From assembly GCA_038503075.1 (NCBI GenBank), contig JBCAML010000018.1, positions 310,001 to 374,000 of the forward strand: DNA of 64,000 nt. Direction: 5' to 3'. A program made the translations under genes and the position numbers. Shown piece after piece: positions 1,304 through 61,046 of the stretch (its first letter is position 1; every line of letters begins with the position of its first letter). Source of the stretch: Gyromitra esculenta (Eukaryota; Ascomycota; Pezizomycetes; Pezizales; Discinaceae). The notes below the pieces were generated by a model, which did no database searches, was not told where the DNA came from, and saw only the letters and a program-made list of their open reading frames with translations.

Positions 1304-4300
1304 CCGACCACCTAGAGGGTATACATATTCCATGAAAAGACAAAATAATCTTCGGTGCTCAGATACCGATTATTTGAGTCAAACTATCTTACCCCCACGA
1401 AAATAATAGCACGCACAAGTGATGTAATTATAATGCAAAGCAAATATCTAGCTATAGGTGGTAAAGGGCGAACGGGATGGCAGTAATCTGTAGTGCAAAA
1501 CCGGAGGACAGTTTATAATTAAGATAATAGCTAATAGAGATCGAAGAGCCGAAGTAAGAGCGAGAAGCATACATAAGGGAACTAGGGATTAGAGAAATAA
1601 CTTCACGCTGTTTGTTACTGTAGTCATATATTATCACTCGCTTAATTTTGCGACCACACCTATTTTCTGCAAAATTAGCTCTACGTCAGTCAAAACTCGA
1701 GCATATAAGCGATACGCAGTATGTTAGAGCTTGCAAGAGCACTTACATACAAAAACAGCTAATTATAATAAACGCTTTAGCGTACATTTCAATATGCTCT
1801 ATTCACACGTGCCACCCCATGGCCACTTAATGTCCTTCTTTGTTTAGTCTCTGACCACAACTGTTATAATCTTCTCTATCGATAAGTAATTACTCAACCA
1901 CGGATCTCTGTATATATCGTCATGGGTAAGTCCACTGGGATCGAGTTCGCCAAACCCTAACCCACTGCTTTCATTCTGACCTTCAGCAGTAAATGTAAAA
2001 GTGGACGATACATCATGACAGATATGCGTCCGGATGGGCCACTAAGTCTAGAGGGTTTCTAGAGGGTTGATTGCGTTTATTTGTGTCTATAGCTAGTGCT
2101 TTAGTTATATAGTACGTTTGCACGCATCTCGGCGCTCTACCGACCGATACACTTGGTACATTGGTTCAATACTACGGTAAAAGCCTCGCCTGAATTACAG
2201 ACATTAAATTTCTGAGATTTTTATAAGCGGATATGTTTAGTGTGCCCATATGTTCTAACTGGCTCTAGAATTCAAGGTCGCAACTTGGGTGGGTATTAGG
2301 ATGCGATGCGTTTTTCATTGTACGGTAATTCGTAAACTAGTATAAAGGACATTGCATCACGAGAAAGAAGCTAATATAAATGCGAAAAGGCCGATATTAC
2401 TTTTCTTGTGCAAGCACTAGCGGGCATACATTATCGGTATACTACCTGCAGGTTTGATTTTGACATTGCCATTGTCGCACTAGCGCGAGCTATGGGATAT
2501 ATAACTGTTCGATCCTCGCTAGTGTTTTTCTATTTAAATTTCCACTTGCGCTAAAAAAAAAAAGGCTGCGCATAACTCTACAACCATGGCCAGGGGGAAT
2601 AAATCAATTTACACATTTCCCATATAAAAAATTCAAAAAAATGTGTATATTAATGTACTTTTGGAGGATCACTGAGGGAAATGCATTACTGGATGCCTCT
2701 ATTGATGCCTTTGCATTTTCACTAGTGTGATTCCTGTAGGAAAGGTGTAGGGGAAGGTGTAAAATAAAGCATCAAGTATAGTAATATAATGTGTACCTGA
2801 GATTAAAGTTGTAGAAAAAGGTGTTTGGGAAAGGAACCAGGAAAAGCATCGTGAGAGGTATCAGGAATGGCATCAGGATATGTATATTTCGCGAAATAGG
2901 ACCCCATATGTGAAGACCTTTTGATGCTTGTCCATATGAACTAGTAGTTTAGGTGGTAAAGAGGGCGGTTAGGGGATATGTCATGTGGCAGCAGGTTAGC
3001 TGGCCAGGGGGGGTTTCGATTCCCTGATCATGATAATTTAATCTTTTAGCGTAGATTTTTTCCTAGTTTTGGGGACTAGAAAAAGGATGGCGAAGGGATG
3101 GAAAATGGAGGGAAAATGGAGGGAAAGGCATCGGATTTACCTTATTACGACTTTCTTGATGCATTTCCCATATGAATTTTGGGCTGCTAAAGCACACTTA
3201 TTCATTCATTTACATGTCCCATGGGTCCCATACAAAATTTAGATAGCAAAATATATACATTTACTGGTTTATTCCCCATACTAATATTTTGCAGTAAAAG
3301 ATGATGCATTAGCTGATTGATTACTCCCGACGGTAGAGTAACCTTTTCCGTAGCCATGGATCCATTTAATTTCGCATTGTTTTCGAGAGTAAAATGAGTT
3401 GTGCTCGTGACATGTTAGTTGCGTAATCAGCGCTCAATTGTAGGGGGTAGCCAAATATACGCACCAAACTAAACACCAACGTTAAGAAAAACATTTCCGC
3501 CTATGGTCCGATTAAGCCAGCCATCACACCTATTACCTACCCTGAGCAGCATCTTCTTCGACTGGATATATATTCTTGGCTGGTCCTTGTAAATTAATCG
3601 GATTACATTCACACGCCCTCCTTTCTAGGTAGGTACTTGCGAAACTTTAATTGCCAGTTAAAGCTGCCCGGTACCGATAGAACGCAGTAGCCCAATACCC
3701 ACGAGAAGCGCCAGCTAAGAAAGCACGGAAATCACGGATTTAGGATTTCCATTGGTCTTTTTAGGATGTAACGAAGATTCTGCCCGTGAGCACTAGCCAT
3801 GGAGTCCCCGTTCACTAACTCTTGTTTTTTGGGAAAACCTTTCCAATGCTAGCCACTAGCCACAACAACCTTTAGAATACCATCCAACACCAAGCACAAC
3901 TAGAAACACACGGAAACCTCTGCCTAAAACACACACACAGCGTGCTGCCATGCTATTCCTACCCCCCCAAGCCTAAGGTTTTAGGATAAAATCGAACGGA
4001 TTAGATTGAATAAATAATAATTAGAAGCATTTAGCGATGGGAACCCTTTAGGCCAGCGTGTATGGTCCTGTCGGACATTGTTTGGTTTAAGCGAGGTGTA
4101 TTTGGGGCAGCTGGATCTTAGAGAAGCTTGGAGACAGCGTGCTCAAAGTGTTACTATATCTAGTAGAAACTAGGGAATTTGGTCGATAGCAGGGCTGTTT
4201 ATGTGGTAGGCGGAGGGTTCCGTGTGTCTCTGGTTATGCTCGGCGTTGGATGGTATTCTAAAGGTGTTTGTGGCTAATGGCTGGCATTGGAAAGGTTTTC

Positions 4301-12876: not shown

Positions 12877-13792
12877 AGTGGAGATTTGGTGGTTATGGCA
12901 TTTGGATGGGAATAGAAGTATAGGCTTAGACTATATCTTTCATTTGTTTGAATATTTATTATGCTGCTGTTGATCTGTAACCTTTACCGCTTTGTGTTTT
13001 AGCTCTTAAGCTTATATTAGGAAATGAAAACGTATTAACCTGCGAATTTGGCTCAATTTTCAACCTAAAATAGCGAGTAAATAAAAGTAGCTAAGAATCT
13101 GAAGGAAGGCATATGCTATCATTAAATGGGGTGATCGAAAGAGGTCAGCATAAGGCTACATGACTAGAGCAATGGCTTTGCGTAGCTTGAATATTTAACC
13201 TTTCTCGTATGCGGTCCAGCTTTCCCCACCTCCTGTACACAGCCTGAACATAAGAAGAAACAAGGAAAAACACAACCTATATATAAGACGAGAGAAAAAT
13301 CTAAGCTTCGTTCAAACGAGAAAAATACATATAAGTTAGCTGTGCCTAATTAAAAATGAAATAAGCAGTAGTGTGTGGGGTACGGTTTGACGACGATTTG
13401 GACACGAAGGGTAATAAAATAGAAAGAGAAGTTGAGCTTTGTACTTCTTCAAGAATTCTGCGCTATCAATGGAAATAGGTGCATAGCTATAGTGCGCGTT
13501 GTCTTAAATGCTGGCCAATCAAATTTGGATGTAGAGTGCTTCTGCCTTGGCTGAATCCTTGTAAAGTCGGGCTACGTTTGTATCAAATTAATACCCCTTT
13601 GAGATTTCTACCATCGATGCATATCATTGAAACAGTAATTTATTTGGAAAGTGAATGCATTGAACAGTAAATCAATGCAAATTAAAACGTATTGGAAGGA
13701 AAACAAAAAGACATTAAATGCGTCGACGTCTACTAGTAGCTCTTGGCTGCCAGTGGTTCTGAGAAACAAAAAGGGGCATTTCTTCAGAGTTG
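12877..13792. other. Intergenic stretch between the KP4-like gene and Myb/SANT copy A
   Basis: AT-rich; no coding region supported. It contains a possible polyadenylation region of the KP4-like gene just after 12,930. I found no counterpart here of the downstream repeat array that flanks copy B. Confidence 0.5.
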
Positions 13793-14428
13793 TCAGTTGG
13801 CATATATTTTAGAACAACTAGCACGAACATTGCCACTGACTCCCTCTGCCCGCTCCTCTTCTGATAATTGAAAAAACATAGTTTCCACAACTCCCCATGG
13901 GATCTTCATTACCGTTGCAATAGGTTGCCACATTTTGGCACGAACGCTGTTTATTATTATATGTGTTGTCAACAATCCCTCCTATTTGTTTTTTAAAGAC
14001 CAAGCCCAGAAATTGCTAATTACCTTTTATACCAGAGAAATTGTCTGTTACTAATCACAGCAGCCTTGTCATTACCCAAGCCTGCCCATGGTGTTTTACC
14101 AATTCGTTCAGGTCTACACAGTGTAAACAAATAAGTCCATATCGGGTCAGAAGATCTTATGCTCCTATTATTAGTTATTTTACCAAATCAAAAGCTAATC
14201 ATAAATAGATTGATACCCTTTATATATAGCGCTAAATGTTTCCGCTTCTTCTTTAGTTGGTTCTCTTATCATAAGACACCTCCTCCAATGATGCTGACAA
14301 GCATAAAAACTTCTGCCCCAAACAATAGATACATCATCTGGCCATAATACTGAAGGCATGCTGTTTACGTGATCTGTTAAAATTTTATCTTCTTCACTAG
14401 ACCACCCAGAACCAGGAACTCCCGCCAT
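13793..14428 (-). CDS. Myb/SANT-domain protein, copy A of a local three-exon family
   Basis: Exons 14428-14217, 14164-14024 and 13946-13793 join in frame to 168 residues. Both introns are phase 2; the first (52 bp) has donor GTATCA, a CTAAT-type branch and TAG acceptor. Exon 1 is a single Myb/SANT repeat with W9, W29 and W48, opening GWSSEEDKILTDHV. Exon 2 carries SSDPIW...TPWAGLGND...WYK. Exon 3 carries MWQPIATVMKIPWGVVETMF, itself Myb-like. Copies B and C share this structure with 50-60% identity, and the 5' leaders are also alike, for example ttctgtgctttcatt near 14510 (on the minus strand). The conserved ATG is at 14428; an in-frame extension upstream falls in the conserved leader and is probably not coding. 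A DNA-binding role is inferred from the fold. The reading frame is intact. Confidence 0.78.
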
Positions 14429-14699
14429 ATCTTGAGCTATAGAATAACAATATTTCAACAAAAAATGTGCAGTGTTTGGAAATATGGATATTCTGAAAAA
14501 TAATGAAAGCACAGAACTCTCGAAAAAGGGAATAAAGCTGTTGGGGGTAAATGACCAGAAGATAAGTGCAAACTCCATTTCTTTTATGCGCGATTTCATT
14601 AACTCTACTGGAGACCAGAGCGCATACTGTGGAAAGTGCCAGTGATCGTCACAATTGAATGTAGCCTGAAAGGAGGTACATCGCCCAGAGCCGGGGCTC

Positions 14700-15015
14700 A
14701 CCTGGGCACTGACACAGGGGTAAGTGCCAGGCCCATCCCCATATTTTGTGTGCCAATATGCGTCTCACTGCGTTTATATACGCTGGTGCTTCTACTGCGT
14801 CCATGCTGTAGTGCGCCTATATCTGCCCGCTCTCGGTATATTAGTATGTACAGTACGTCGTCCCCATAGTACGTCGGTACGCTCAACTGCATTTAGTGCA
14901 CCAATGCGCCTAGTACACCCATATATTGCTCTACCTCTCGCTCCAATAGTACGCTCCCCACGCTCATACCTTTTCTCCCTCGTCCGTCATACATCCAGTA
15001 CGCCTGGCACGCACA
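14700..15015 (-). repeat. Inner repeat module upstream of Myb/SANT copy A
   Basis: A degenerate array of gtac-gtc/cgcc-type units. On the minus strand, facing gene A, it contains gcattggtgcactaaatgc followed by agttgagcgtaccgacgtac. The array before copy B (43,600-43,680) has gcatagatgcactgaatgc and agttgggcgtgccgacgtac in the same order. The module is thus shared between the two copies and lies on the 5' side of the gene in both. Confidence 0.65.
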
Positions 15016-23474: not shown

Positions 23475-25035
23475 TTTGGCGCTGGATGGGCTCTGGTTCA
23501 CGGTTTCGATTTAATGGAGTATTTTGGCAGGAGCCTAGGACTGTGGAAGTGTGAGGAGGCTTGTCCTCCCTTCAGGACATTAATTCCTCTCAGTGACCCC
23601 AGAATGCATATTATTTCCCACCCCAAGCCGAATGCCTTGAAGATCTGCCACACAGGTACTCTAATACAGTAATGAGTGAAAGGGCGTGGAGTGTGAAGTG
23701 TAAGTACTAAAGCGGAGCATACAGATATCGAGAGATGGCGATGAGTCGCAGGAGATATACTTCCCACTATGGTACGGCACCGCCAGACAGTGGGAAATTT
23801 CTGCAGCTACCCAGAGATACACAGAAGATAAAGCATGTCCGCTGTGTGCATGGTGACAGTGGCCCAGCTGCTAATGTGTGGCATCGCCGCCGTCGCCTCA
23901 TTAAATGGCACCGCTATATGGTCCACTCACGAAATATCACTCGCGCCAAGCCTTCGCCAGCACATGGAGTTTTTAAGGGAGAGCTTATGGAGTATCGAGA
24001 TATCAAGAGACATTTTCTAGAAAGTCGCTGGTAAAGACTGCATACTATCTACTTCTCTAGACCCAGCTAGATTCCATCACGGCTGGGCAGCCGGAAAACT
24101 GCTGCTTGCGTGCCCAAACCTACCGCCAGTCACTTGGATCACGCATCAATCCGCCTCGTCGCAGTTCTCTCCGTTCTGAATGCAGCCAATCCTAAATCGC
24201 TCACGCCTTGTTCCTCCTCCAATCTTCCAAATGCACCCTCTTCCACTTCGTCGCACTTGCTTTCTGCCTCAAAGGGGACGCGTCGCTTGTACCTGCCTAC
24301 TCGGGAGCCCGCTGGACCTGGAAACAGTATTGTTTTCCTGGTGGGTAGTAGGACAGAGGATGCGATTCCCATCGACGGGGTTTCTTTGCCCAATCCAGTT
24401 TCTACTGTTCCGCGCGAATTGGGCGGGCACTGGAGAACTTTAACTGCGCCTCCCGCCAAGCGACGTTGACGTCGACGCGTAGTCCATTGCGTGTTCTGGG
24501 CAGCACCCGGTTGGAGCTGCGGGTCGTGATGTGGATCGCTGCAGATAAGGTACCCAACTGCCCCCGGAATACGGGCTGGGCAAGGCGTAATCGACATCTA
24601 GAGTACAGAGTTAATGGTATTACCTAAACCCCACCTAGGTACTGGATATGGCTCTGGTACGGTGCGCCAATGGGAGTGATTCCTGGATTGATTACGTGCT
24701 AATGTGTTCTGGCAGATTAGGCCGCGGGAGCTCTCTGCATCATCGTATTCCATCCTGTGGATACTCTAAAATTCGAATATTGCCCGAAAGCAGGTGCCAG
24801 GTGAGCTGCTGGGCTCCTGAGGACGGGGATGGCCCAATTCCACAGTACCACCATGGCTCCATGACGCGGGGATACATGGCGGGATCTTGAGATCTGTGAG
24901 ACTGAGGCATCAGTATAAAAACCAATGCCAATCCTGCTGTGAATCCTTATCAGCAATACAGTGCCATTTCCTACTCTCATATCTCGTCTTGGAGAACCCT
25001 TTCGACGCACCAGATACTCCATCTCACCACCCACA
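23475..25035. other. Intergenic stretch between FAD oxidase and esterase genes
   Basis: Frames overlap on both strands (for example 24,110-24,469 plus and 24,139-24,597 minus), with no domain in either. No gene is supported. The last 120 bp form the promoter of the next gene. Confidence 0.45.
24914..24920 (+). promoter_or_regulatory. TATA box of the PAF-acetylhydrolase-like gene
   Basis: TATAAAA lies 116 bp before the start codon at 25,036, a normal fungal distance. Confidence 0.5.
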
Positions 25036-26145
25036 ATGGCACGCACAACTAAACTGTTCACCGTTTTCCTCACCCTCATCACCGAAATCATCGCCTTCTC
25101 CCTCCCCGCCGTGACGGGAAAATACGATGTCGGCACCGTCCAATTCCCACTGACAGACCACTCCCGCAACGACTCCTCCGCACCCCCGGGCACGCCCCGC
25201 TCCATCATGGTGCAGCTATTCTACCCCGGCCAGAAAGCCGCAAACTACCCACTCGCACCCTACATCACCCCCAAAATGGCACAGTACATCGACGCCGCCC
25301 TCGGCGCCCCCAACGGCACCATCAACCAGATCAAGACCAACTCCCACCAGGGCGCACCCCTCCTGCAGACCGCCTCCTCCCTGCAAACCGTCTTCTTCTC
25401 CCCCGGCCTCGGCACGTACCGCGCCCTGTACACCACCCTCGTCGAGGACCTGGCCTCCCACGGATACCTCGTCGTATCGATCGACCACCCGTACGACGCC
25501 AGCATCGTCGAGTTCCCCGACGGCACGCTGATCTTCCTGGACCCAGCCATCGCGAACGTCACCGATGCGCAGCTCACCGCACTGCAGGACGTCCGCGTCA
25601 AAGACATCCAATTCGCGCTCTCCTCGCTGCAGACCCGTCTCTCCGCCTTCCTCCCCGGCGCGGGCTCCCACCTGCGCATACGCAGCCCGGGCGTATTCGG
25701 ACACTCCTTCGGCGGCGCCGCCGCCGCAAACGTCATGCTCGCGGAACCCTGCTTCGCCGGCGGCATCAACATGGACGGCACCATCTACGGCCCGGCCCCC
25801 GCCAAGGGCCTCGGCCGCCCCTTCCTCCTCATGGGCGTGTCGGACCACAATATCGCGTTCGACGCCACGTGGGCGACATTCTGGGCGCATCTGCGCGCGT
25901 GGAGGAGGGAGCTGGTCATCGCGGGCGCGGAACATATGTCCTATTCGGACGTGGGCGTGGATGCGAGTCTGTTGGGCGCGGGGCCGATGCCGCCGGATGC
26001 GCAGCTGGGCACGATTGATCCGCTGCGCGCGAACGTGCTCGTCAGGATGTATATCAGTGCGTTTTTTGACTTTGTGTTGAAGGGGAAGGGGGATGGGATC
26101 TTTGGGGCGAGTAAGGAGTATCCGGAGGTTTCGTTCCAGAGCTGA
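25036..26145 (+). CDS. Secreted PAF-acetylhydrolase-like serine esterase
   Basis: An intronless gene encoding 369 residues from the ATG at 25,036, which is followed by a signal peptide (MARTTKLFTVFLTLITEIIA). The fold is alpha/beta hydrolase of the PAF-acetylhydrolase isoform II family. The nucleophile elbow GHSFGG places Ser224. Asp247 lies in GGINMDGTIYG, 23 residues later, the same Ser-Asp spacing as in human plasma PAF-AH. His300 lies in AGAEHMSYSDV. FFSPGLGTYRALY near residue 118 supplies the oxyanion region and SIDHPYDASIVEFPDG follows. Family members hydrolyse short acyl chains from phospholipids or other esters; the fungal substrate is unknown. Several N-glycosylation sites fit secretion. 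It lies 1.56 kb from the FAD oxidase, same strand, same GC-rich composition. All catalytic residues are present. Confidence 0.88.
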   Translation: MARTTKLFTVFLTLITEIIAFSLPAVTGKYDVGTVQFPLTDHSRNDSSAPPGTPRSIMVQLFYPGQKAANYPLAPYITPKMAQYIDAALGAPNGTINQIKTNSHQGAPLLQTASSLQTVFFSPGLGTYRALYTTLVEDLASHGYLVVSIDHPYDASIVEFPDGTLIFLDPAIANVTDAQLTALQDVRVKDIQFALSSLQTRLSAFLPGAGSHLRIRSPGVFGHSFGGAAAANVMLAEPCFAGGINMDGTIYGPAPAKGLGRPFLLMGVSDHNIAFDATWATFWAHLRAWRRELVIAGAEHMSYSDVGVDASLLGAGPMPPDAQLGTIDPLRANVLVRMYISAFFDFVLKGKGDGIFGASKEYPEVSFQS

Positions 26146-30881: not shown

Positions 30882-30994
30882 GCTATACTCATGGCGCCAG
30901 ATTTATAACGCGTCGCGTGACCGGATTTTAGAACAGTCCTCAACTAAAATCTAGTCACGTGACGCATTATAAATCTGGCGACATGAGTATGAGC
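30882..30994. repeat. MITE-like hairpin, about 113 bp
   Basis: The left arm has actcatggcgccagatttat then aacgcgtcgcgtgac and ggattttag. The right arm, reverse-complemented, has actcatgtcgccagatttat then aatgcgtcacgtgac and tagattttag. Arms of about 45-50 bp are separated by a loop of about 12 bp, so the single strand would fold almost end to end. No coding content. Most mismatches are transitions. Confidence 0.75.
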
Positions 30995-41501: not shown

Positions 41502-42689
41502 AGATTGCAGATGAATCAAAGACCTGTGAAAAGACGGTGATGAAGACTTGTGGTTATTGTGACGGTGGTGATGGTGGTGGTGGCTGGGTTGCCGGGGAGT
41601 TGAGAAGTGCGTACGTGTACGGCGCACATTCTGTACACGTCAGTCTGCACTTATACGTCTCCTAGTCTACGGATACCTCTCTTTATGGAAATGTAAGTTA
41701 ACTTTTATGGCTCCTATCAATAAATAGAAGACTATTCGCGTCTCATCAAACTCAGACCTTTGAGAGATTTGCTTGTACTAATTCTTTCTTTGACTTTAAT
41801 GGGTGTCGCCATCGGTCACTCGAGCACGTGTCCGACCTCCGTTATCTGTTGAAGTACAAGATACGCGCAGAGAGTTGATCGCTTCTATCGCTACTCATAA
41901 CACTGTTCGCCTAGGTAGCTTCTTCTCTCGTATAAGCAACTGCAATACTTCAATATTTGATAGCACTGCAGACAACCAACGGCCAAAGCTTTTTCCATAA
42001 CACATAAGCATTTACCACCCCTAATTTGAATCTCAATTATAATTCTGAAGCCGAATATATTTTAATTTCTGTTTCAATTACGGCTACAGGAAAGGTTTGT
42101 AATGTCTCATCCAAAGACAAGTCATTAACACTTAGGCACCAATACTTAAATGCTATTGTTGAAGGGGCTGTAGCGGGACAGAGGTTTGACATTAAAAAAC
42201 TGAACATCTTGATCGGAAGCCTGCATAATATCCATCAAATTTCTTCGTGGGAATTCAAGTGTTCATAACGGTTTACAGCGATTTGTAGATACCAATTTAC
42301 TATATAATGCTTCTTTTTCTAAGTGCATGCACATTCGCCAAATATATTTCTGTATCATATCTTCTATTTTTAGAAATATATACTCTAAACCCCAAAACTA
42401 TTTATATTCCGCAGCTCTTTTTTATAATAGAGAATTATAAAAAATCGTATAAAGCTAGCGAGTGGTATTGTAACAGGTCCTAAATAGCGTTACATGTCAC
42501 GAGCATTGTCGTCTTCGTTGTACATGTGTGCAGTAACTGTACTTAGTAGGCGGCTGTTACTATAACAGGGCATTCCTAAGGACAAAACCTTAATCTAGAG
42601 CACAACCGTGCGAATCCAAATGCGTGTGGATAAAGGGTGATGATAATGATTTAAGTAGAATAGTTTTGCTGGCAAGGACTTAATGTAAA
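41502..42689. other. Intergenic stretch left of the copy B element
   Basis: Two adjoining plus-strand frames (41,803-42,000 and 42,026-42,268) read as plausible protein but are separated by stops and show no domain. They could be a decayed gene. Otherwise AT-rich. Confidence 0.4.
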
Positions 42690-43750
42690 TAGGGTTCGAC
42701 GTCGTACGTAGAGCTCAGGATGCACTAGACGCGGCCATCTTAATCCTACTTCTGGACGCACGAGAGAATGGATCTGTGCCTGGTACACCCTATGTATCGG
42801 CTCTTCTAGACGTACTAGATGAACTAGACGAGCTAGACCAGTATGAACACGCCACGATCACGCTCCTATCACGCTGCTTTTGAAGCTTTGAATAGGTGCG
42901 AATTCATCGCTTTTCTAGAGCATTACTATTCTATATACATATATTTCTCTCTACTCTCCGCTCTGCTCCTCTCCCTGCTTGCTGCTCTGCTGTCCGCCCC
43001 TCCCCCCCGGCCCAATCCGCTCGCCTACCTGCCCGCAGTCGAATAGGTGTCATACGGGCATAGCTTGAGGGTCAATCCTGTTGTCGAACGGGCTTTATGG
43101 GCGGATCTAAGACGATCTCTAGAGTAGTCAACCTGGCCGTCGAACGGAGGTATACGGCCGTCACTAGAGCAGTCAATTCGACAGTCAAACAGGCGCTCAA
43201 GCAGGCAGGATATGGAAGTTGCTAGGGACTTGCTAGGAAGCCAACCCCGTTGCCGAGAAGATGGTATACTAGTAGGAGACGCCGCCCGGTGGGGGGTCGG
43301 ATACTCCCTGGTAATTTGTTAGCGAAATTCGTTTACCGAGACAGGAGCGGGAGGGCAAGCAGGATGGGAAGTGTGTGGCCCATAAGAGAGGTGTTGTTGG
43401 GAAGGCGTGAGTGAAGTTATGATGATCGTGAACGAAGCTGACCCACAGAGCTGAGAGGGGACTAGGGTCTGACTTAGATAGGCGAGTACGGGCGTGCTGG
43501 GTGCAAGAACGTACTAAGTGCACTAAGCGTACTAAATGTAGGGTAAACAAGGGAATAAAGATACGGGCATAAAGAGTGTATTCAATAGAATAAATATATG
43601 GACATACTAGGTGCATAGATGCACTGAATGCAGTTGGGCGTGCCGACGTACTATGGGGGAAAAATACTGGGCGTGCCAACGTACTGGGCGCAGGTAGACT
43701 TACTATAGCACGGATAAACAAGACATACTAGCTCGTATAAACACAGTTAG
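42690..43750 (+). repeat. Left inverted array of the Myb/SANT copy B element
   Basis: Three modules in order. Outer (about 42,690-43,010) has tcaggatgcactagacgc, gagaatggatctgtgcctgg, gatcacgctcctatcacgct and ctatatacatatat, then a C/T-rich stretch. Middle (about 43,020-43,260) has degenerate units like tcctgttgtcgaacgggc. Inner (about 43,480-43,740) has gtac/gcgt units. The same modules occur in the opposite orientation at 45,000-46,430 beyond gene B. Shared outer sequences include gaatggatc...gcctggtac and gtcacgctcctatc, so the two arrays are long imperfect inverted repeats around the gene. Confidence 0.7.
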
Positions 43751-44026
43751 ACACATATAAACGCACAATTGTACAAGCTTTAGGGTGTGTGCCTTCTTTC
43801 ACAGTACTTTAAATTATGACAATCACCTTCAATAGTATGTACTCTTGTCTCCAGTAGAATTAATGAAATACCATATAAAAGAAACATAATCTGAATTAGT
43901 CTACATGCCATAAAACTAAACCATTTATATTTCTTTTTCAAGAGTTTTGTGCCTTCATTCTTTTTCAGAATATTCCCATTTTCAAAAACCGAAGTTCTTG
44001 CATAGTGTTTTTAACGAACAAGAAAT

Positions 44027-44717
44027 ATGCCCAGAATCAATCATTTTTTCTGGTCTAGTGCTGAAGATGAAGTTTTAACAGAGTATTTAAACAGTAGCCC
44101 TTCAATAACATGGCCTTCGAATATATCAGATATTGTGAAGGGCAGGACTCTAGATGCCTGTAAAAATCGTTGGGGGACTTTTCTAATGAAAAGAAAACCT
44201 ACTGTGGAAGAGACAGAAGTATTTGGCACGATATATAAAGGGTATCAATCTATTCATGATTAATTTGTGAGTTTGTAAAAGTTACTAACAAAAGGCACAA
44301 AAGATCATCTGATCCATTATGGACCTACTTGCTCACGCAATGTGGTCACGAGTACATTGGCAGCAGAACGCCATGGGCAAACCTAGGTGATAGTCCAGTT
44401 AATATTATTGCCGACAAGCCATATGGTTGGTATAAAGGGTCTGTATAAATTTTTTGGCCAAGTCATTTTAATTTGAAAAGAAAGAATTGTTAACAACCTG
44501 AAACCCTTTAACTAAAAACAGGTACCGTACTCTATTATGGCAACCTATTGCAAAGCAAATGAAGATTTCATGGGGTGTGGTTGAAACCTTGTTTTTTCAA
44601 TTAACAGAAAAGGAAAGGGCAGATGGAGTCAAAGTTGATGCTCTTGTTAGCCCTTCTGGAATTTATACCAGTATGGTAGCAGATTTCTCCGACGAAACAA
44701 CCTATTTGTTTGATTAG
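44027..44717 (+). CDS. Myb/SANT-domain protein, copy B (intact)
   Basis: Exons 44027-44241, 44295-44438 and 44522-44717 join in frame to 184 residues. Both introns are phase 2, at the same codons as in copies A, C and D; intron 1 (53 bp) has a TTACTAAC branch. Exon 1 encodes a Myb/SANT repeat with W9, W29 and W49 at 19-residue intervals (FFWSSAEDEVLTEYLN ... DACKNRW). Exon 2 has RSSDPLWTYLLTQC, then TPWANLGD and WYKG. Exon 3 has LLWQPIAKQMKISWGVVETL, then FFQLTEKERADGV and an acidic end. No signal or membrane segment, so a nuclear DNA-binding role is likely. The gene lies between two long inverted repeat arrays, which a Myb-type protein could recognise. The leader shares gacaatcacctt and tagtatgt with copy C, and the 3' flank is shared too. 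Confidence 0.8.
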
Positions 44718-44999
44718 ACCTTAACTAGAACTAGGCATATTTGTTGTTTTTAGCATGCAGAGTAATATGTTTGTATAAGTTCTAATAAACCGTTCACTGA
44801 ATTCATGTTCCCGATAACTGTAACCGGGACGGCCCTGAGACAAAGACTCCACAATGTACATGTAGCTGTGTGAACTTGAATGTAGTTGTATGTAGGAGAA
44901 GGATATATGTTCTAACTGATATTCCAAGAAAGCCGGTTTACAAAGCAGCCTAGCCAATTTACATATTGGTTAACCCATTTACAAACCGTCTAACTTTAC

Positions 45000-46430
45000 A
45001 TATCGGTTGGCTAACATCAGCAAAAACGGGTCTGCGCATGCGCGCATGGGCAAACGTCCGGACGCACTTCTAAAAATTTGTTTGTCTATATGCGTCTAGC
45101 TGCACCGGTGCGTCTAATACATCGCCAATATGGAGCTCTCGTACGTCCATCTGCGCCAGGTACGTCTATCCATGCTTGGTACGTTGATACGTCCCAAATC
45201 TTGTCCGTTCACATGCCCCAGTACGTTCAATGCGTCCATACGCCCATACCTTTGCTTCAGTGTCCTCCTGAATAGTCTGTCTAATACGTCTAGTACACCT
45301 GTACGCCTATACGTCTATATCTTTGCTTCAATGTCCTCCCGAATAGCCTGCCCAATACGCCCATACGTCTTGTACGCCCATGCACCCATACGTCTACACC
45401 CAGGACGCCCGTACGCCGTGGCCCAATAGCGGCCTCGGTCGGGTTCTTCTAAGTCGAAACCCTAGCTCCCCTCTCGGATCTTTGGGCCAGCTTCAAGTTC
45501 CTTCACGATCACCATGACCTCGCCCACACCCTCCCAGCAGCACTTCTCTCATATGGGCCACATCCTCCACCTCCTACTTACCCTACTACTACTACTACTA
45601 CTACTACAATGAACTTCGCAAACAGATCTCCAGGTTGTATGTCGCTGTCGTTCAGTGCCCCTGACCCTCCCGCCCCGCCTGCTTGACTGCTGGATTGACT
45701 GCCACAGGAATTTCTCCAGCGATACCCATAAACTGACAGCTTAGTTGCTTTAGGACGCTCGGATTGACCCGTTCGACAGCAGGATCGACCTCCCTAGCGA
45801 CCTCCCCAGCAGCCCCCCTAGCAGCGTCCCTAAGGCGCCCATATTGACCTCGCTCGACTGCATGATTGAGCTCCCTAGAGACCCCCCCTAGAGAGCTTCC
45901 TAGGACGCCCTATTGGGCCCTTTTGACAGCAGGATCAAGCCCTCTAGCGAGCCACATATGGCTGCAGCTCGACTGCAGGATCACCTCCTAGGGAGCCCTA
46001 TACGGCGCCTGCTCGACAGCGAGATCGACCCCACGAGCGAGCTCTATATGGCGCCTACTCGACAACGAGAGAAAGAGAGCGGGTGGGGGGCGGAGGGCGC
46101 AGGAGAAGCCGCAGAGTGTAGGTGAGAGCGGAGGGCGGAGAGCGGAGAGTGCCATATATGTATATAGCTTAGTAGATATAGAGAATTGACGATATCGCAC
46201 ATATTCATACCCTTGAAAGCAGATTGATAGGAGCGTGACCGTGATGCGTCTATATAGACTCTAACCCGTCCAGTGCGTCCAGTGCGTCCAGAACCTAGGA
46301 CGTACCAGGCGAGGATCCATTCTGGGATTTGTATCGGGCGTGGGGCGTGCGTTGGAGGCCCCCACGCGTGCAAACTTTGGGGCCTGCGTCCAGTGCTTTA
46401 TGCGCATCCTGACGCAGACCCCCCTTTTTG
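45000..46430 (-). repeat. Right inverted array of the Myb/SANT copy B element
   Basis: Mirror of the left array. From the gene outward: inner gtac/cgtc units (45,040-45,430), middle units (cgacagcaggatcgacc at about 45,772, with relatives near 45,850, 45,913, 45,963, 46,013 and 46,055), then the outer module (about 46,080-46,430). Read on the minus strand, the outer module gives ggtcacgctcctatc, agaatggatcctcgcctggt and gcgtcaggatgcgcat, all matching the left end in order. A ctg/cta-rich simple repeat and a cct-rich stretch interrupt it near 45,520-45,610. Confidence 0.7.
45583..45607 (+). repeat. (cta)n microsatellite
   Basis: Eight consecutive cta triplets inside the right array of the copy B element. 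Confidence 0.9.
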
Positions 46431-46439
46431 CTAACGTGT

Positions 46440-46560: not shown

Positions 46561-46923
46561 TTCTTTTTAGTGAAGTCATTTTGTTCACAGTGAAAAGATA
46601 ACATTTCTTCCTAGCCATCAAGTGCATCAGGCAAGCGGAAAGACAATTTTTTTTCTCCTTACGTAATCTTTGCGTTGATATTCTTTCCTACTGTATTTTG
46701 AATTAAGACAATCACCTTTGATAGTATGTGCCCTTGCTTTTAGTAGAATTTATAAACTGTTGCTTAAAAAAAAAACGGTGTTCGAATTCATTTTCTTGTC
46801 ATGTACCTCGTGTATTCAAATCTATCTTTATTTTTTGATAGTTCTGTACATTCATAATTTTCTTGAATCTCCACATTTTCCATAACTTTTATTTCCGCAT
46901 ATCATTATTAACCAATTCCAGAT

Positions 46924-47612
46924 ATGCCTAGTACCCCAAGTGATTACAAATGGACTGTTGCCGAAGATCAAATTTTAACTGATCATATGAACAACACTCC
47001 ATCAACTGCTTGGTCCGCTAGAAACAATATTGTTGAGGGCAGGGGTTGGCAAGCTTGTCAGATTCGCTGGAAAAGGACGCTTATGAAACGTGATCCAACC
47101 GAGAGTGAAATTGAAACATTTGCCATTTTATATAGAGGGTATCAATCCATTTGTGATTTATATTGGAATACGTAAAATTACTAACAATAGGATCCGGAGC
47201 TTAAGGTCTTCAGATCCATTATGGGCTTACCTGTTCCAACAGTGTGAACTTGATAGGATTGGTACCAATACACCATGGGCAAACATGGGTAACGATAAAG
47301 ATCTTTTAATTGCCAATAGAATGCATGATTGGTATAGAAGGTTTGTATCAATTCGCAGGCCTTGTCTTTTAACTTTGAGTAGAAAAGATTATTAACATAT
47401 ATAACATATGACAACAAACAGCTTTCGCCATGAAATGTGGCAACCTATTGCAACAGAAATGAAGATCCCCGGGGCGTAGTAGAAGCTATTTTTTTCGATT
47501 GACAGAAAAGGAACGAGCAGAGGGAGTCAAAGTCATTAATGCTCTTGCTAGCTATCCTGGTATTTCTATGCCAGCAGATGACTCTGCTGAAATGACTTAT
47601 TTCGTTGATTAG
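46924..47612 (+). pseudogene. Myb/SANT-domain gene, copy C, broken in exon 3
   Basis: Exons 46924-47138 and 47191-47340 are intact and phase-compatible: Myb/SANT repeat (YKWTVAEDQILTDHMNN ... QIRWKRTLMKRDPT) and RSSDPLWAYLFQQC with TPWANMGND and WYRR. Exon 3 (47422-47612) is recognisable from MWQPIATEMKIP, but aligned with copies A and B it lacks one base near 47,470 and one near 47,490. This gives a stop right after the KIPGA codons; the lost frame is recovered further on up to the TAG at 47,612. So the C-terminal module is destroyed while the DNA-binding part remains open. Either this is a recent pseudogene or it yields a truncated protein with only the first two modules. Leader and 3' flank match copy B. 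Confidence 0.75.
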
Positions 47613-48300
47613 GCCCTGTCTAGAGCTAGATATATTTTGTCTTGATGCTTTTATTTTAGTACATTTTTATGAACTGTAATTGACCACTTGTCGTATTCAT
47701 TTTTCCAATAACGTACTGTTTAAATAGTAAATTATTCGATACTCCTTGTGGATCGAATGTATCAGCCCTTGACCCAGCCTTAGCAGTATATCTTAGATCC
47801 TCGGAATAAGCGTAGTTTCCGAGTTAACAATCTGGAGGTTGTTCTTTGATTTGGGTCGGCACTGCGACATAATTCGTGCAGGGAAACCTGGGCTGCATTA
47901 CTTACTTAATCTCACATTATACTTAGTAGAGCATCAGCAAAAGAGTATATGTGTTGACGGATCTATAAACACTCCCAGGTAGCTATTAAATACGGGCGAA
48001 AATGATATAATCACGACGGACGCTTGTATAAAGTCGGCTGTCTCATGCTTCACTACCATTTGCATCCCATCCACAACTTCGTTTTTAGCCAGCGTCAATT
48101 CACGACTTCCCACAATATAATTCACACCTAAGTACCTCGTTGAGCTTGCAATTGCACAGAAATCTGATAAAGTTGACTATTACTATGCTAGGTAAACCCA
48201 ATATCTAAATCCAAATACCCATCATCCGACCCGAAACCACATCCGAAAAACCTTCCCCCCCCTACAAAAGAAAGAAACGCCATGAAGCTCAGCTCCTATA
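47613..48300. other. Intergenic stretch
   Basis: The first 100 bp match the 3' flank of copy B (for example ctagagctagatatattt against ctagaactaggcatattt). No gene is supported in the rest. Confidence 0.5.
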
Positions 48301-54687: not shown

Positions 54688-55569
54688 TGGGATTACGTGG
54701 AGATCCTGTAATTAGAAGGGGGGGGGCAACCTGGACAGTAGAATAGTCGGGAGAAGGATCTGTGATGAAGATTCGAATCGATGGTATGAATGTTAATACT
54801 AGTCCTTCGTTAGGTGATATTTGAGTTTCTGTAAAAGCGAAAGATGTGAAAAGTTTTTTTTTTAATGCTGTAGTGGCGGTGGCAGCCTTGTGCGGTTCAC
54901 AGCGTGATATTTCATATTATCTTGTGTTATGTGACCTGGTGTGCGTCCAATAGGTTGCTTGGTGCACTGCGAACTCTAACTACCCTATCCAGTTAAATTT
55001 CCCGAGAGTAAGCATCACACTTGGCTATTGTTATTTCAGCCAATAGCATTAATGAATCCGTCCCTACAATAGGATGATCAAGATCGTACTCCCTTTGGAG
55101 GGCAGCACCTCGTCGGTCGCGATACCTCGAGCTCATTCGAAGCCATAGTAGCTTACTAAATGCCTTGGAGCGCGCCCGACTGTCTCCAAAGCCCTCCTTT
55201 AGCGGAATGTTGGGATGAATAGTAATTGGGATATCTCTCCATATAGGTGGAGAGAAGCTTGCACGAAAATAATGCGAACGAACTAAATATTGCTATAGAA
55301 ACCGAGATACTGATATCGCGATATATAGCAACGTATATACAAATAGATGACAAATAAATGCCCATAATATGCCCAGTACTTAGAGTTCTAGAAGCAGTTC
55401 CTAAAGACCTGCATGACAAGAAATGCACTAATGCAATCACTTCGCACACTTCCTATTTACTCCATGCACTTCCATTAGTTGACATTTGTCTCCAGCAACC
55501 TACAGCTGTGCCAGCTCCATCCCTGGACGAGCCAGGTCCGCGTTATACTGTGACGAGGTAAACCTCAGT
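54688..55569. other. Intergenic stretch
   Basis: No gene supported. The minus-strand frame at 55,156-55,449 is hydrophobic by composition only. Confidence 0.45.
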
Positions 55570-55760
55570 CTTAACAAATCAACTAGGTGCCAGGTGCCAG
55601 CTTTTGTCTAGGGAATCATATATACGGCTGGCGCCGTCTAGACAAAAGTAGCAAGCGTTACAAGGACCGTAGGTCTGCCATTCCCAAGTTCCTAGTCATC
55701 CTCAATCTCGCTGCGCTCGAAGTACTGGGTATTTCTAGCAAGCTGGGGCTCCTCTGTGGT
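55570..55760. repeat. 190-bp repeat, copy R1 (3' side of the SAP-like gene)
   Basis: Nearly identical to 57,052-57,240 (about 85-90% identical by eye). Inside lies an inverted pair cttttgtcta ... tagacaaaag around atatacggctggcgccg, and near the end caagctgggg. Similarity continues more weakly to about 55,830 (tcacttggcgct against tcacttggcatt). Most differences between copies are transitions. Confidence 0.85.
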
Positions 55761-56146
55761 GGGTTTTTTAGCGAAAAAAATATTGATTGATTATCATTCT
55801 GATCTAATCACTTGGCGCTCTCGCCAACACATCCAACATCCTTTCCCGAACATTCTAATTGCTCGGCGCTTCGCTACGGAAATGAGACAACACATTCAAA
55901 GAAATCCATGAGCCTTCGCCCATCATGGATTATTGAAAATTAATTAATCGAGATTTACATCTAAAATACATTTACATGTATACTACCTTCAGCGCGCTAA
56001 CGATCAAACATTCTTATACTCCTCTACACATTTCCGACATTTTAATCAGTTCAACCCATGTACCTCGCTTACACGGTCGGGAATAACTCACCTTTCATGG
56101 ATCTCGTTCCACTCGCTCTCGTGAACTCCAGAAACGAATACAAAGC

Positions 56147-56944: not shown

Positions 56945-57051
56945 TGTTCTCAGTGCGGTTGCCCCAATCGAATGGGTGGCCACCCCCGGGTAGCCAAGGG
57001 TTAGGTCCAGGAGCCAGGACCGAACTTTACTCTGGTGCTGTATTCTCCATC

Positions 57052-57240
57052 CTTAACAAACTCCCCAGGAGCCAGGTGCCAGCTTTTGTCTATAGAATCA
57101 TATATACGGCTGGCGCCGTCTAGACAAAAGTAGTAAGCGTTACAAGGACCGTAGGTCTGCCAACTAAGTTCTTAGTCATCCTCAATCTCGCTGCGCTCGA
57201 AGTACCGGGTATCCCCAGCAAGCTGGGGCCCCTCTGTGGT
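57052..57240. repeat. 190-bp repeat, copy R2 (3' side of the PD-(D/E)XK gene)
   Basis: Second copy of the repeat at 55,570-55,760 in the same orientation, ending about 120 bp beyond the stop codon of the neighbouring minus-strand gene. Weak similarity continues to about 57,320. Confidence 0.85.
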
Positions 57241-57361
57241 GTTTTTATATATAATAAAATAATAGATAAGATTGGATTCTCTCATCTTATCACTTGGCAT
57301 TATCTTGGCAATTATTTATTATTAGTTACTGCACCCGGGAAACTCCACCGGGTACTCACCT

Positions 57362-59058: not shown

Positions 59059-59793
59059 TTAACTAATTAAATCATTAACTGTAAGTATGCAGCTGTTGCA
59101 ATTGGCGCCTCGTGGATTCGAGTCAAACACTCCAGCTCTTTCTTCCTCAGTCAGGTAGAAGAACATGGTTTCGACCACCCCCCACGGACAGTCAATAGTG
59201 ACGGCCAAAGATATCCACAAGCGTCTTCGAAGTCCGCGTGTACTACGTATGCAATCGTGTCAGTCAGCTGTGAAACTCGCCCATATTTAGTCACATAGAT
59301 TGGTATTTTTACCTGGAGTACCAATGACTAGCCACACCAGTATTCATCGTCCTCATATGCGAGCCGAGATTTTCCCATGGCCTAAAAACTCCTAGTGGCC
59401 CCAGCCTAGCGCGGGAAAACGACCACACGTCCTTAAAATTGCTATTTTTGAGACGGTCAGCAAAGAAAAAAAAGAACTAAACAATTCTGGTGTGTTGGAA
59501 AAACTATTCGGGGTAATGCTTTACAGTTTGTAAATTTCTTTAAATCTTGCAAATTCACTTTCGGTGGGCATCCGAGAATTTAAATAGCGTATAAAAACAT
59601 GCTTGCAGGACGCGCTACTTCTTCCAGGGAAATGGCTTGCGACTTTGCTCCAACTAACATTTTCGAGTGTGAGACATTGCTGGTGCAGAATTAACTTTTC
59701 TTCTTCGGTCCAAGGCCTATGATCTCTAGGACTCTCATAACCGCGAGCTAAACTTTCATCTGCGGCCGGTTCGTACGTTTCCTTGCTATCCAT
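59059..59793 (-). CDS. Myb/SANT-domain protein, divergent copy D
   Basis: Exons 59793-59525, 59441-59313 and 59242-59059 join in frame to 193 residues, with both introns phase 2 as in copies A-C. A 22-residue acidic lead precedes the Myb/SANT repeat (HRPWTEEEKLILHQQC, VSWSKVASHFPGRSSASCKH), where the third tryptophan is replaced by an aromatic. Exon 2 keeps the spaced signature: KDVWSFSRARLG, FRPWENLGS and SHWYSR. Exon 3 keeps LAVTIDCPWGVVETMFFYLT followed by EEERAG. The coding match to the other copies is clear only in these motifs, so this copy is older. No repeat array flanks it and its leader is not shared. It could be the resident host gene from which the repeat-linked copies came. A nuclear DNA-binding role is inferred. 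Confidence 0.76.
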
Positions 59794-61046
59794 TGTGATA
59801 TATATTGGGTATCTTTTTTTTTATAACGTTCCACCGATGATGGTAACGGTAATGGATAGCTAGTGTGTTTGTTTGCTAAGGGCGCTGTAACTATTTTCCC
59901 ACACGTTTTATACAAAAAACGTCTAAGAGAATGACGTCAAGAGGATCAAACAAGAGCAGTGTCATAGCCACGATAGAAGGATCGCAAACTTCCGTGAAGG
60001 CTGGTCGAGTGGAGAGATATAAAGCTTTGGTCTATTTCACTCCGTGGTCTGGGATTCAAACGCTACAGAGTTTACATTTACCTGGATACTGACCGGCAGA
60101 GTATCGACTCAGCGAATCAAGATCACAGGGCGGGTCGTTCCCTCGATCCCAACCAGCAGCGCTAGTATTTGCAGAAGCAGTAACACCTCGCCACTTACCA
60201 AATCGTGTAAACGTGATATTCTCAAGGCCCTCGGAAATAGACTGGCAGCAACGGTGAAAGCTGCGGTGAGGTCAGAGCCGGTTGCGAAGCCGAATCTCAC
60301 GGGGGACACGATGTTATTGCAACTGGTGGGAAGGAGGGGGAGGATGAGTAGGGTTTTGTAGATTTGGGCTGGTGGTTTGTATGGATGGTTTTATGGTTTG
60401 GCTTTGTTGAGCTGTCTGGATGGTTCTTTGTCCGGTGCGCATTGTTTATCCGCCAGAGACTCAATGATTTAGAGTACTGGAAATGGAGGTTAAAGGGATA
60501 TTCATCACAGATCTTCGAGATCTCGAGAGTGATTCTTTGCACGCTCAACTGGTTTTTAGTTACGTAAATTGCGATCCAGTGGTCAGGTTTCTATCATCGA
60601 AAACCACTCGATGGTTTAGTAATTGCTATTACCACAGCCCAGGGATGATTGTACCTGCATGAAATCCAGGTATCCGGCAACGCGCCCGCCAGAGGGGATC
60701 TCTAGATATCCTCATCGCCCCTTACCAGTGTCAATAAACCCCTTTTCTCTGCAGAACTGCGCTTTGCAGGATCGGAAAGGCGTGTAAGCGCCCAGAGCCA
60801 CAGCAAAAGCACATTTCACACCCATCGGGGCAAGGCAGCAGCGTGTGGCTTGCAATTGTGTGATACACAATTGCCTCAAGCGAATCTGTGTAACTTGATC
60901 CTTTCCCGCTGGTTCCACCATTATTCTGCATTCAGTTCCACAAACGCCCATTCCTGGGGGTCAAAAAGGCCATATTCCCCCCATATTCCCCCTCCGCAGC
61001 CCTCTCCTGGCCAAACTTGAATTTGTGTTCTCTCCTGTGCACTGTC
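59794..61046. other. Intergenic stretch
   Basis: No gene supported. Overlapping frames around 60,044-60,361 and 60,109-60,548 lie on opposite strands and show no domain. The segment just before 61,047 is the promoter and leader of the next gene. Confidence 0.45.

Follow-up and report, generated by a model that had tools for sequence, protein, structure and literature searches.

Mirrored repeat arrays around a Myb gene in Gyromitra esculenta: most likely stacked insertions of PlavakaB-type transposons

How does a gene come to lie between two mirror-image repeat arrays: as part of one mobile element, or because elements inserted separately on either side of it? This question is raised by a 64,000-nucleotide stretch of DNA (hereafter the window) at positions 310,001-374,000 of contig C18, within a 47.1-Mb fungal genome of 23 contigs. 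In the window, mirrored arrays at about 42,680-43,790 and about 45,015-46,436 have a three-exon Myb gene between them. A preliminary description of this DNA had likened the whole to a DNA transposon with long subterminal repeats. The features of the locus are the following.

42680..43790, minus strand: left array, a decayed non-autonomous element with its outer end on the left and its inner end beside the gene, of the subfamily of copies L051, L004, L003 and L002; limits approximate
44027..44717, plus strand: Myb gene A, a predicted spliced open frame of 184 aa (exons 44027-44241, 44295-44438 and 44522-44717)
45015..46436, plus strand: right array, a complete 1.42-kb non-autonomous element with its inner end on the left and its outer end on the right, delimited by both termini and by genome copies with the same edges
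45015..45035, plus strand: inner terminal inverted repeat CATCAGCAAAAACGGGTCTGC, with 1 mismatch to the inner-end pattern
46411..46436, plus strand: outer terminal inverted repeat GACGCAGACCCCCCTTTTTGCTAACG, with 2 mismatches to the outer-end pattern
46681..47637, plus strand: Myb copy B, 66% identical to A in DNA, apparently broken, with single-base gaps in exon 3 relative to other copies
13777..14680, minus strand: Myb copy Lw, whose frame is open wherever it was read; array-like sequence lies upstream of it, at 14746-14927

The inverted arrays around the gene were confirmed. The best inverted match between the left and right arms scored 91.5 bits, whereas the maximum in 200 dinucleotide shuffles of the right arm was 31.0 bits (0 of 200 exceeded 40 bits). 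Self-comparison of the window with BLASTN gave two inverted matches (E 1e-18 and 4e-18), and inverted co-linear pairs between the left and right arrays were numerous in the window comparison. The two sides do share modules, as had been claimed: the outer marker GAATGGATCnnnnCCTGGTA was present in one mismatch-free copy per side, and TCACGCTCCTATC had exactly two matches without mismatch, one per arm. At up to 3 mismatches, two or more matches to GAATGGATCnnnnCCTGGTA were also obtained in 7 of 100 shuffles, so this marker is weak when taken alone. For TCCTGnnGTCGAAC at up to 2 mismatches, 15 matches were found in the window versus 3.9 expected, and 6 of the 15 were within the two arms. The outer limits, placed at 42,690 and 46,430 at first, were refined to about 42,680 on the left, where the end is decayed, and to 46,436 on the right, where it is sharp. 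An open spliced frame does lie between the arrays, but the gene is not alone, with two further copies in the window. Scans of the window for tRNA genes and Rfam families gave no match. Other features of the window include a PAF-acetylhydrolase-like frame at 24,943-26,142 (nearest named matches: Calcarisporiella thermophila at 41% and Basidiobolus ranarum at 39% identity), a direct repeat of about 290 bp (55,529-55,816 and 57,011-57,298, 82% identity), and, at 30,885-30,990 and 3,833-4,300, a 106-bp palindrome and a 105-bp inverted pair (83-86% identity).

The right array is delimited by termini of its own. They are of the CATCAGC...GCTGATG type, with CATCA at one end and the other end changed (TAACG). 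A genome search with this array gave at least 88 matching pieces (a lower bound, with 40 of 57 candidates scored), many of which shared start or stop edges; the shared edges, CATCAGCAAAAACCGGTCTGCG at the inner end and CGCAGACCCCCCTTTTTGCTGATG at the outer end, represent one terminus in inverted forms. With 3 mismatches or fewer allowed, the genome contained 36 inner and 20 outer ends, and the reversed patterns gave 0. The bare CATCAGCAAAAA occurred 185 times versus 11 for its reversed control, which indicates that the array family belongs to a larger group; members of this group with the same ends include 400-bp miniatures and elements of 1-4 kb. After matches of the array searches had been merged with the scans for inner and outer ends, the repeat was found at 57 or more places. 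Only 2 of the 57 had a Myb member at a distance of 2 kb or less and 55 did not, so that the arrays are widespread without the gene, an outcome that the preliminary description had itself named as speaking against its reading. A further array fragment, adjoining Myb copy C22, was found by local comparison only. The distribution was uneven: 20 of the 57 places were on C23, the smallest contig (904,152 bp, about 2% of the genome), a possible accessory or heterochromatic chromosome, and 10 of the 57 were within 15 kb of a contig end (calculated with the lengths of C15 and C16 left out). An inverted arm pair without a gene was present at C4:208.5-210.4 kb. Besides, a 643-bp element on C23 (L061, C23:253,851-254,493) is bounded on both sides by the inner terminus and has long inverted arms.

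The left array aligned lengthwise with a complete copy of about 1.12 kb (L051), of another subfamily than the right arm, and also with L002-L004; its own ends are decayed. The two arrays of the window are members of different subfamilies. In a tree of 17 of the 20 prepared copies (>600 bp, part of the 57 places) the arms were separated by a 100/100 branch, and forcing them together cost 45.9 log units (AU p 4.55e-5); with all 20 copies the cost was 54.4 log units (AU p 2.63e-5). The ranking by summed BLAST scores counts against this split, as the right arm was the top match of the left arm (248 versus 215 bits for the next).

Gene A belongs to a lineage-restricted family, mostly located on C18. 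The Pfam match of the Myb domain of gene A (E 1.2e-4, 22.6 bits) is below the curated cut-off of 24.4, and a profile of five family members matched c-Myb chains with E 2.1e-12. Searches of 19 and of 657 candidates gave no relative of the Myb protein at E 1e-3. Seven close copies were recognized (A, B and Lw in the window; C1, C3, C22 and C23 elsewhere), with introns and upstream sequence in common; they form one group (support 81/87, no starred branch, long branches). Copies B and C22 look broken, and in five close copies the compared coding pieces are open; dN/dS (NG86) was 0.26-0.68 in the 6 of 10 pairs that allowed the calculation, and the 4 pairs with C23 were saturated. Four divergent members are located on C18 (at 231, 292, 369 and 380 kb), where the nearest array place is at least 12.6 kb away. 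One divergent member, in three pieces, lies in the window at 59,062-59,820 (minus strand), and the C-terminus of the C3 copy (L035, C3:73.3-74.5 kb) contains tandem coding repeats of the YPGIS type.

An element end seems to lie at the same upstream place in the close copies, clearly in three of the seven, where it was found by scan beside the start of the shared gene region (C1 with 0 mismatches, C22 and C23 with 1 each), and by alignment only in the remaining four, being recognizable at C3 and given by alignment position alone at A, B and Lw. Array sequence continues upstream in A and Lw. Downstream of the gene, within the flanks seen, an arm is present in one of the seven close copies, A, and copy B starts 245 bp past this arm. 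Near the place that the right arm occupies at A, an exact CATCAGCAAAA word occurs in B (1,250 bp into the copy) and a version with one mismatch in C22 (1,329 bp in). These findings bear on whether the arms and the gene move together as one composite element with working outer CATCAG ends, in the manner of an IS-flanked composite transposon. The mirrored layout, the common upstream end and the two words near the right-arm place would all agree with such an element. However, the arms are derived from different subfamilies, the right arm forms a complete element of its own, the arm-gene-arm block did not recur at the other close copies within the flanks seen, no arm-like sequence was visible by eye behind the CATCAGC-like words at B and C22, and 55 of 57 places are free of the gene. 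We thus regard a composite element as very unlikely. A single element with long inverted repeats was rejected on account of the right arm's own termini, the subfamily split and the gene-free places. Of the transposon reading in the preliminary description, transposon DNA with internal repeat arrays was upheld, and a single element ending in the two arms was not.

To which class of transposon do the arrays belong? Among 24 copies with both ends read (the count excludes one-ended copies, among them L040, L041, L043, L046, L053, L054, L055 and L056), 8 had an exact 2-bp duplication versus 1.9 expected on random re-pairing (p 1e-4), including 3 of 11 with array-type ends and 5 of 13 with other insides; none had an exact duplication of 3-6 bp. 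For a 401-bp relative, four empty sites were found with uninterrupted flanks and one GG versus two at the filled site. The absence of any duplication had been considered on ten two-ended copies (3 exact) and was revised after 13 more and L061. PlavakaB has been described with termini 5'-CATCA..TGATG-3' and duplications of 2 or 3 bp, and Plavaka has been placed near CACTA/EnSpm, the CMCT group being CACTA/EnSpm-Mirage-Chapaev-Transib; the named Plavaka families given there were reconstructed from Agaricomycotina (PMC12730594). The ends studied here agree with these termini, with one end changed in the right window element and the left window element decayed. The 2-bp duplication is a property of the group with these ends and is not found at the right window element, whose flanks are AA and TG. 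Matches to Plavaka transposase were detected at nine loci of the genome (15 rows) and in 0 of 14 control genomes. Because of the termini, the duplication and the Plavaka transposase genes in the genome, we call the arrays non-autonomous PlavakaB-type elements.

No transposase match was obtained within the window elements, both of which are filled with degenerate repeat arrays, and none was noted between the arms, where open frames of 150 aa or longer were inspected as a list alone. PF02992 had 0 matches in this genome and also 0 in the controls, and is hence uninformative. The need for mobilization in trans, noted in the preliminary description, was borne out, and a Plavaka transposase would be the probable source of movement. 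In the seven of nine Plavaka loci that were read, no Plavaka gene was enclosed by CATCAG ends on both sides; at one Plavaka locus, a lone CATCAGCAAAAA end lies at a distance of 2.7 kb. At L079 (C18:971,588-972,427), a Plavaka frame is flanked by inverted repeats of 340 bp, which are spaced about 6.2 kb apart and match other repeats too.

The CATCAG ends might alternatively belong to another superfamily, piggyBac-like or unclassified, that shares them by chance. This idea is prompted by a 3.4-kb element with matching CATCAG ends and a broken DDE_Tnp_1_7 (piggyBac-type) frame (L048, C7:640,551-643,985). The target of piggyBac is TTAA, which was present at 0 of the 24 sites of the duplication test, and piggyBac was not adopted as the driver on the basis of L048. 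Moreover, by eye and among the ends listed, only 1 of 28 DDE_Tnp_1_7 match rows was between such ends, and the termini and duplication fit PlavakaB, making another superfamily unlikely. Matching ends were also seen 6.1 kb apart at L049, where one frame resembles a retroelement gag by eye; the two frames searched from the six-frame list had no Pfam match.

A different kind of explanation would make the arrays and the Myb family a working pair, in which the Myb protein might bind the arrays as helper, repressor or targeting factor, and an element end in the promoter might let it control its own gene. The apparent upstream element end of the close clade is in line with this, as are dN/dS values below one in the six pairs given above and the array insertions that adjoin Myb copies at A/B, C3 and C22, above an even spread. 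On the other hand, none of the four divergent Myb members has an array place closer than 12 kb, and clustering is also observed away from Myb genes, on C23 as noted. As judged from sequence features, a working pair appears highly improbable, and we would give equally little credence to its extended form, in which the Myb family would have been recruited as a TNPA-like array-binding partner and new insertions would be steered to its binding sites near Myb copies. Clusters of the elements also occur on C23 and close to contig ends, so the arrays beside the Myb copies may be due to silent chromatin common to these regions. The gene and the arrays probably do not work together.

The reading we prefer, with a probability of about 80%, is that two non-autonomous PlavakaB-type transposons, moved in trans, inserted separately and now frame the gene by chance as the two arrays. 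The elements would be CACTA/EnSpm-like, moving by cut and paste, filled with degenerate repeats and mobilized by transposases encoded elsewhere. The probable order of events starts with the left element, which would be old: in the gene ancestral to the seven close Myb copies, an element end would have stood about 230 bp before the start codon, and copying of the gene would have carried it along. The right element would have inserted independently, in reverse orientation to the left one, into the space between the tandem copies A and B, so that gene A happens to be framed. Thus, ordinary stacked insertion rather than one new mobile element is the most likely origin of the locus. This suggests that even a striking layout of a gene inside inverted arrays can arise via stacked insertions of a dispersed transposon. 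Besides, a gene clade that apparently carries an element end in its promoter through copying offers a testable case of transposon-supplied regulation.

Comparison with known systems places the elements as follows. In PIF/Harbinger and Nuwa, both genes (DDE transposase and Myb/SANT) are inside one element, and the duplications of Harbinger and Nuwa are 5'-TWA-3', 5'-CWG-3' or C|TNA|G (PMC4482050). The likeness is a Myb/SANT protein near transposon DNA. In contrast to the 3-bp duplication there, the duplication of the CATCAG-ended group is 2 bp long without fixed sequence, no transposase is found, and the gene is outside both elements rather than joined with a transposase in the one-element arrangement of PHIS. 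The Harbinger analogy drawn in the preliminary description fails on these points, and a Harbinger-like element was rejected on duplication length (no exact 3-bp duplication at the 24 copies). Plant CACTA/EnSpm elements have subterminal repeats bound by TNPA, which is encoded inside the element. They resemble the present case in short repeats in the ends and a DNA-binding protein as a possible partner, and differ in that the TNPA gene is inside the element, whereas the Myb gene is outside. PlavakaB differs in that the window elements have no transposase match and are filled by degenerate repeat arrays; the likeness consists of the CATCA..TGATG termini, the 2-bp duplication and Plavaka transposase genes in the same genome, and we report CATCAG-ended, array-filled Plavaka-type elements in this fungus.
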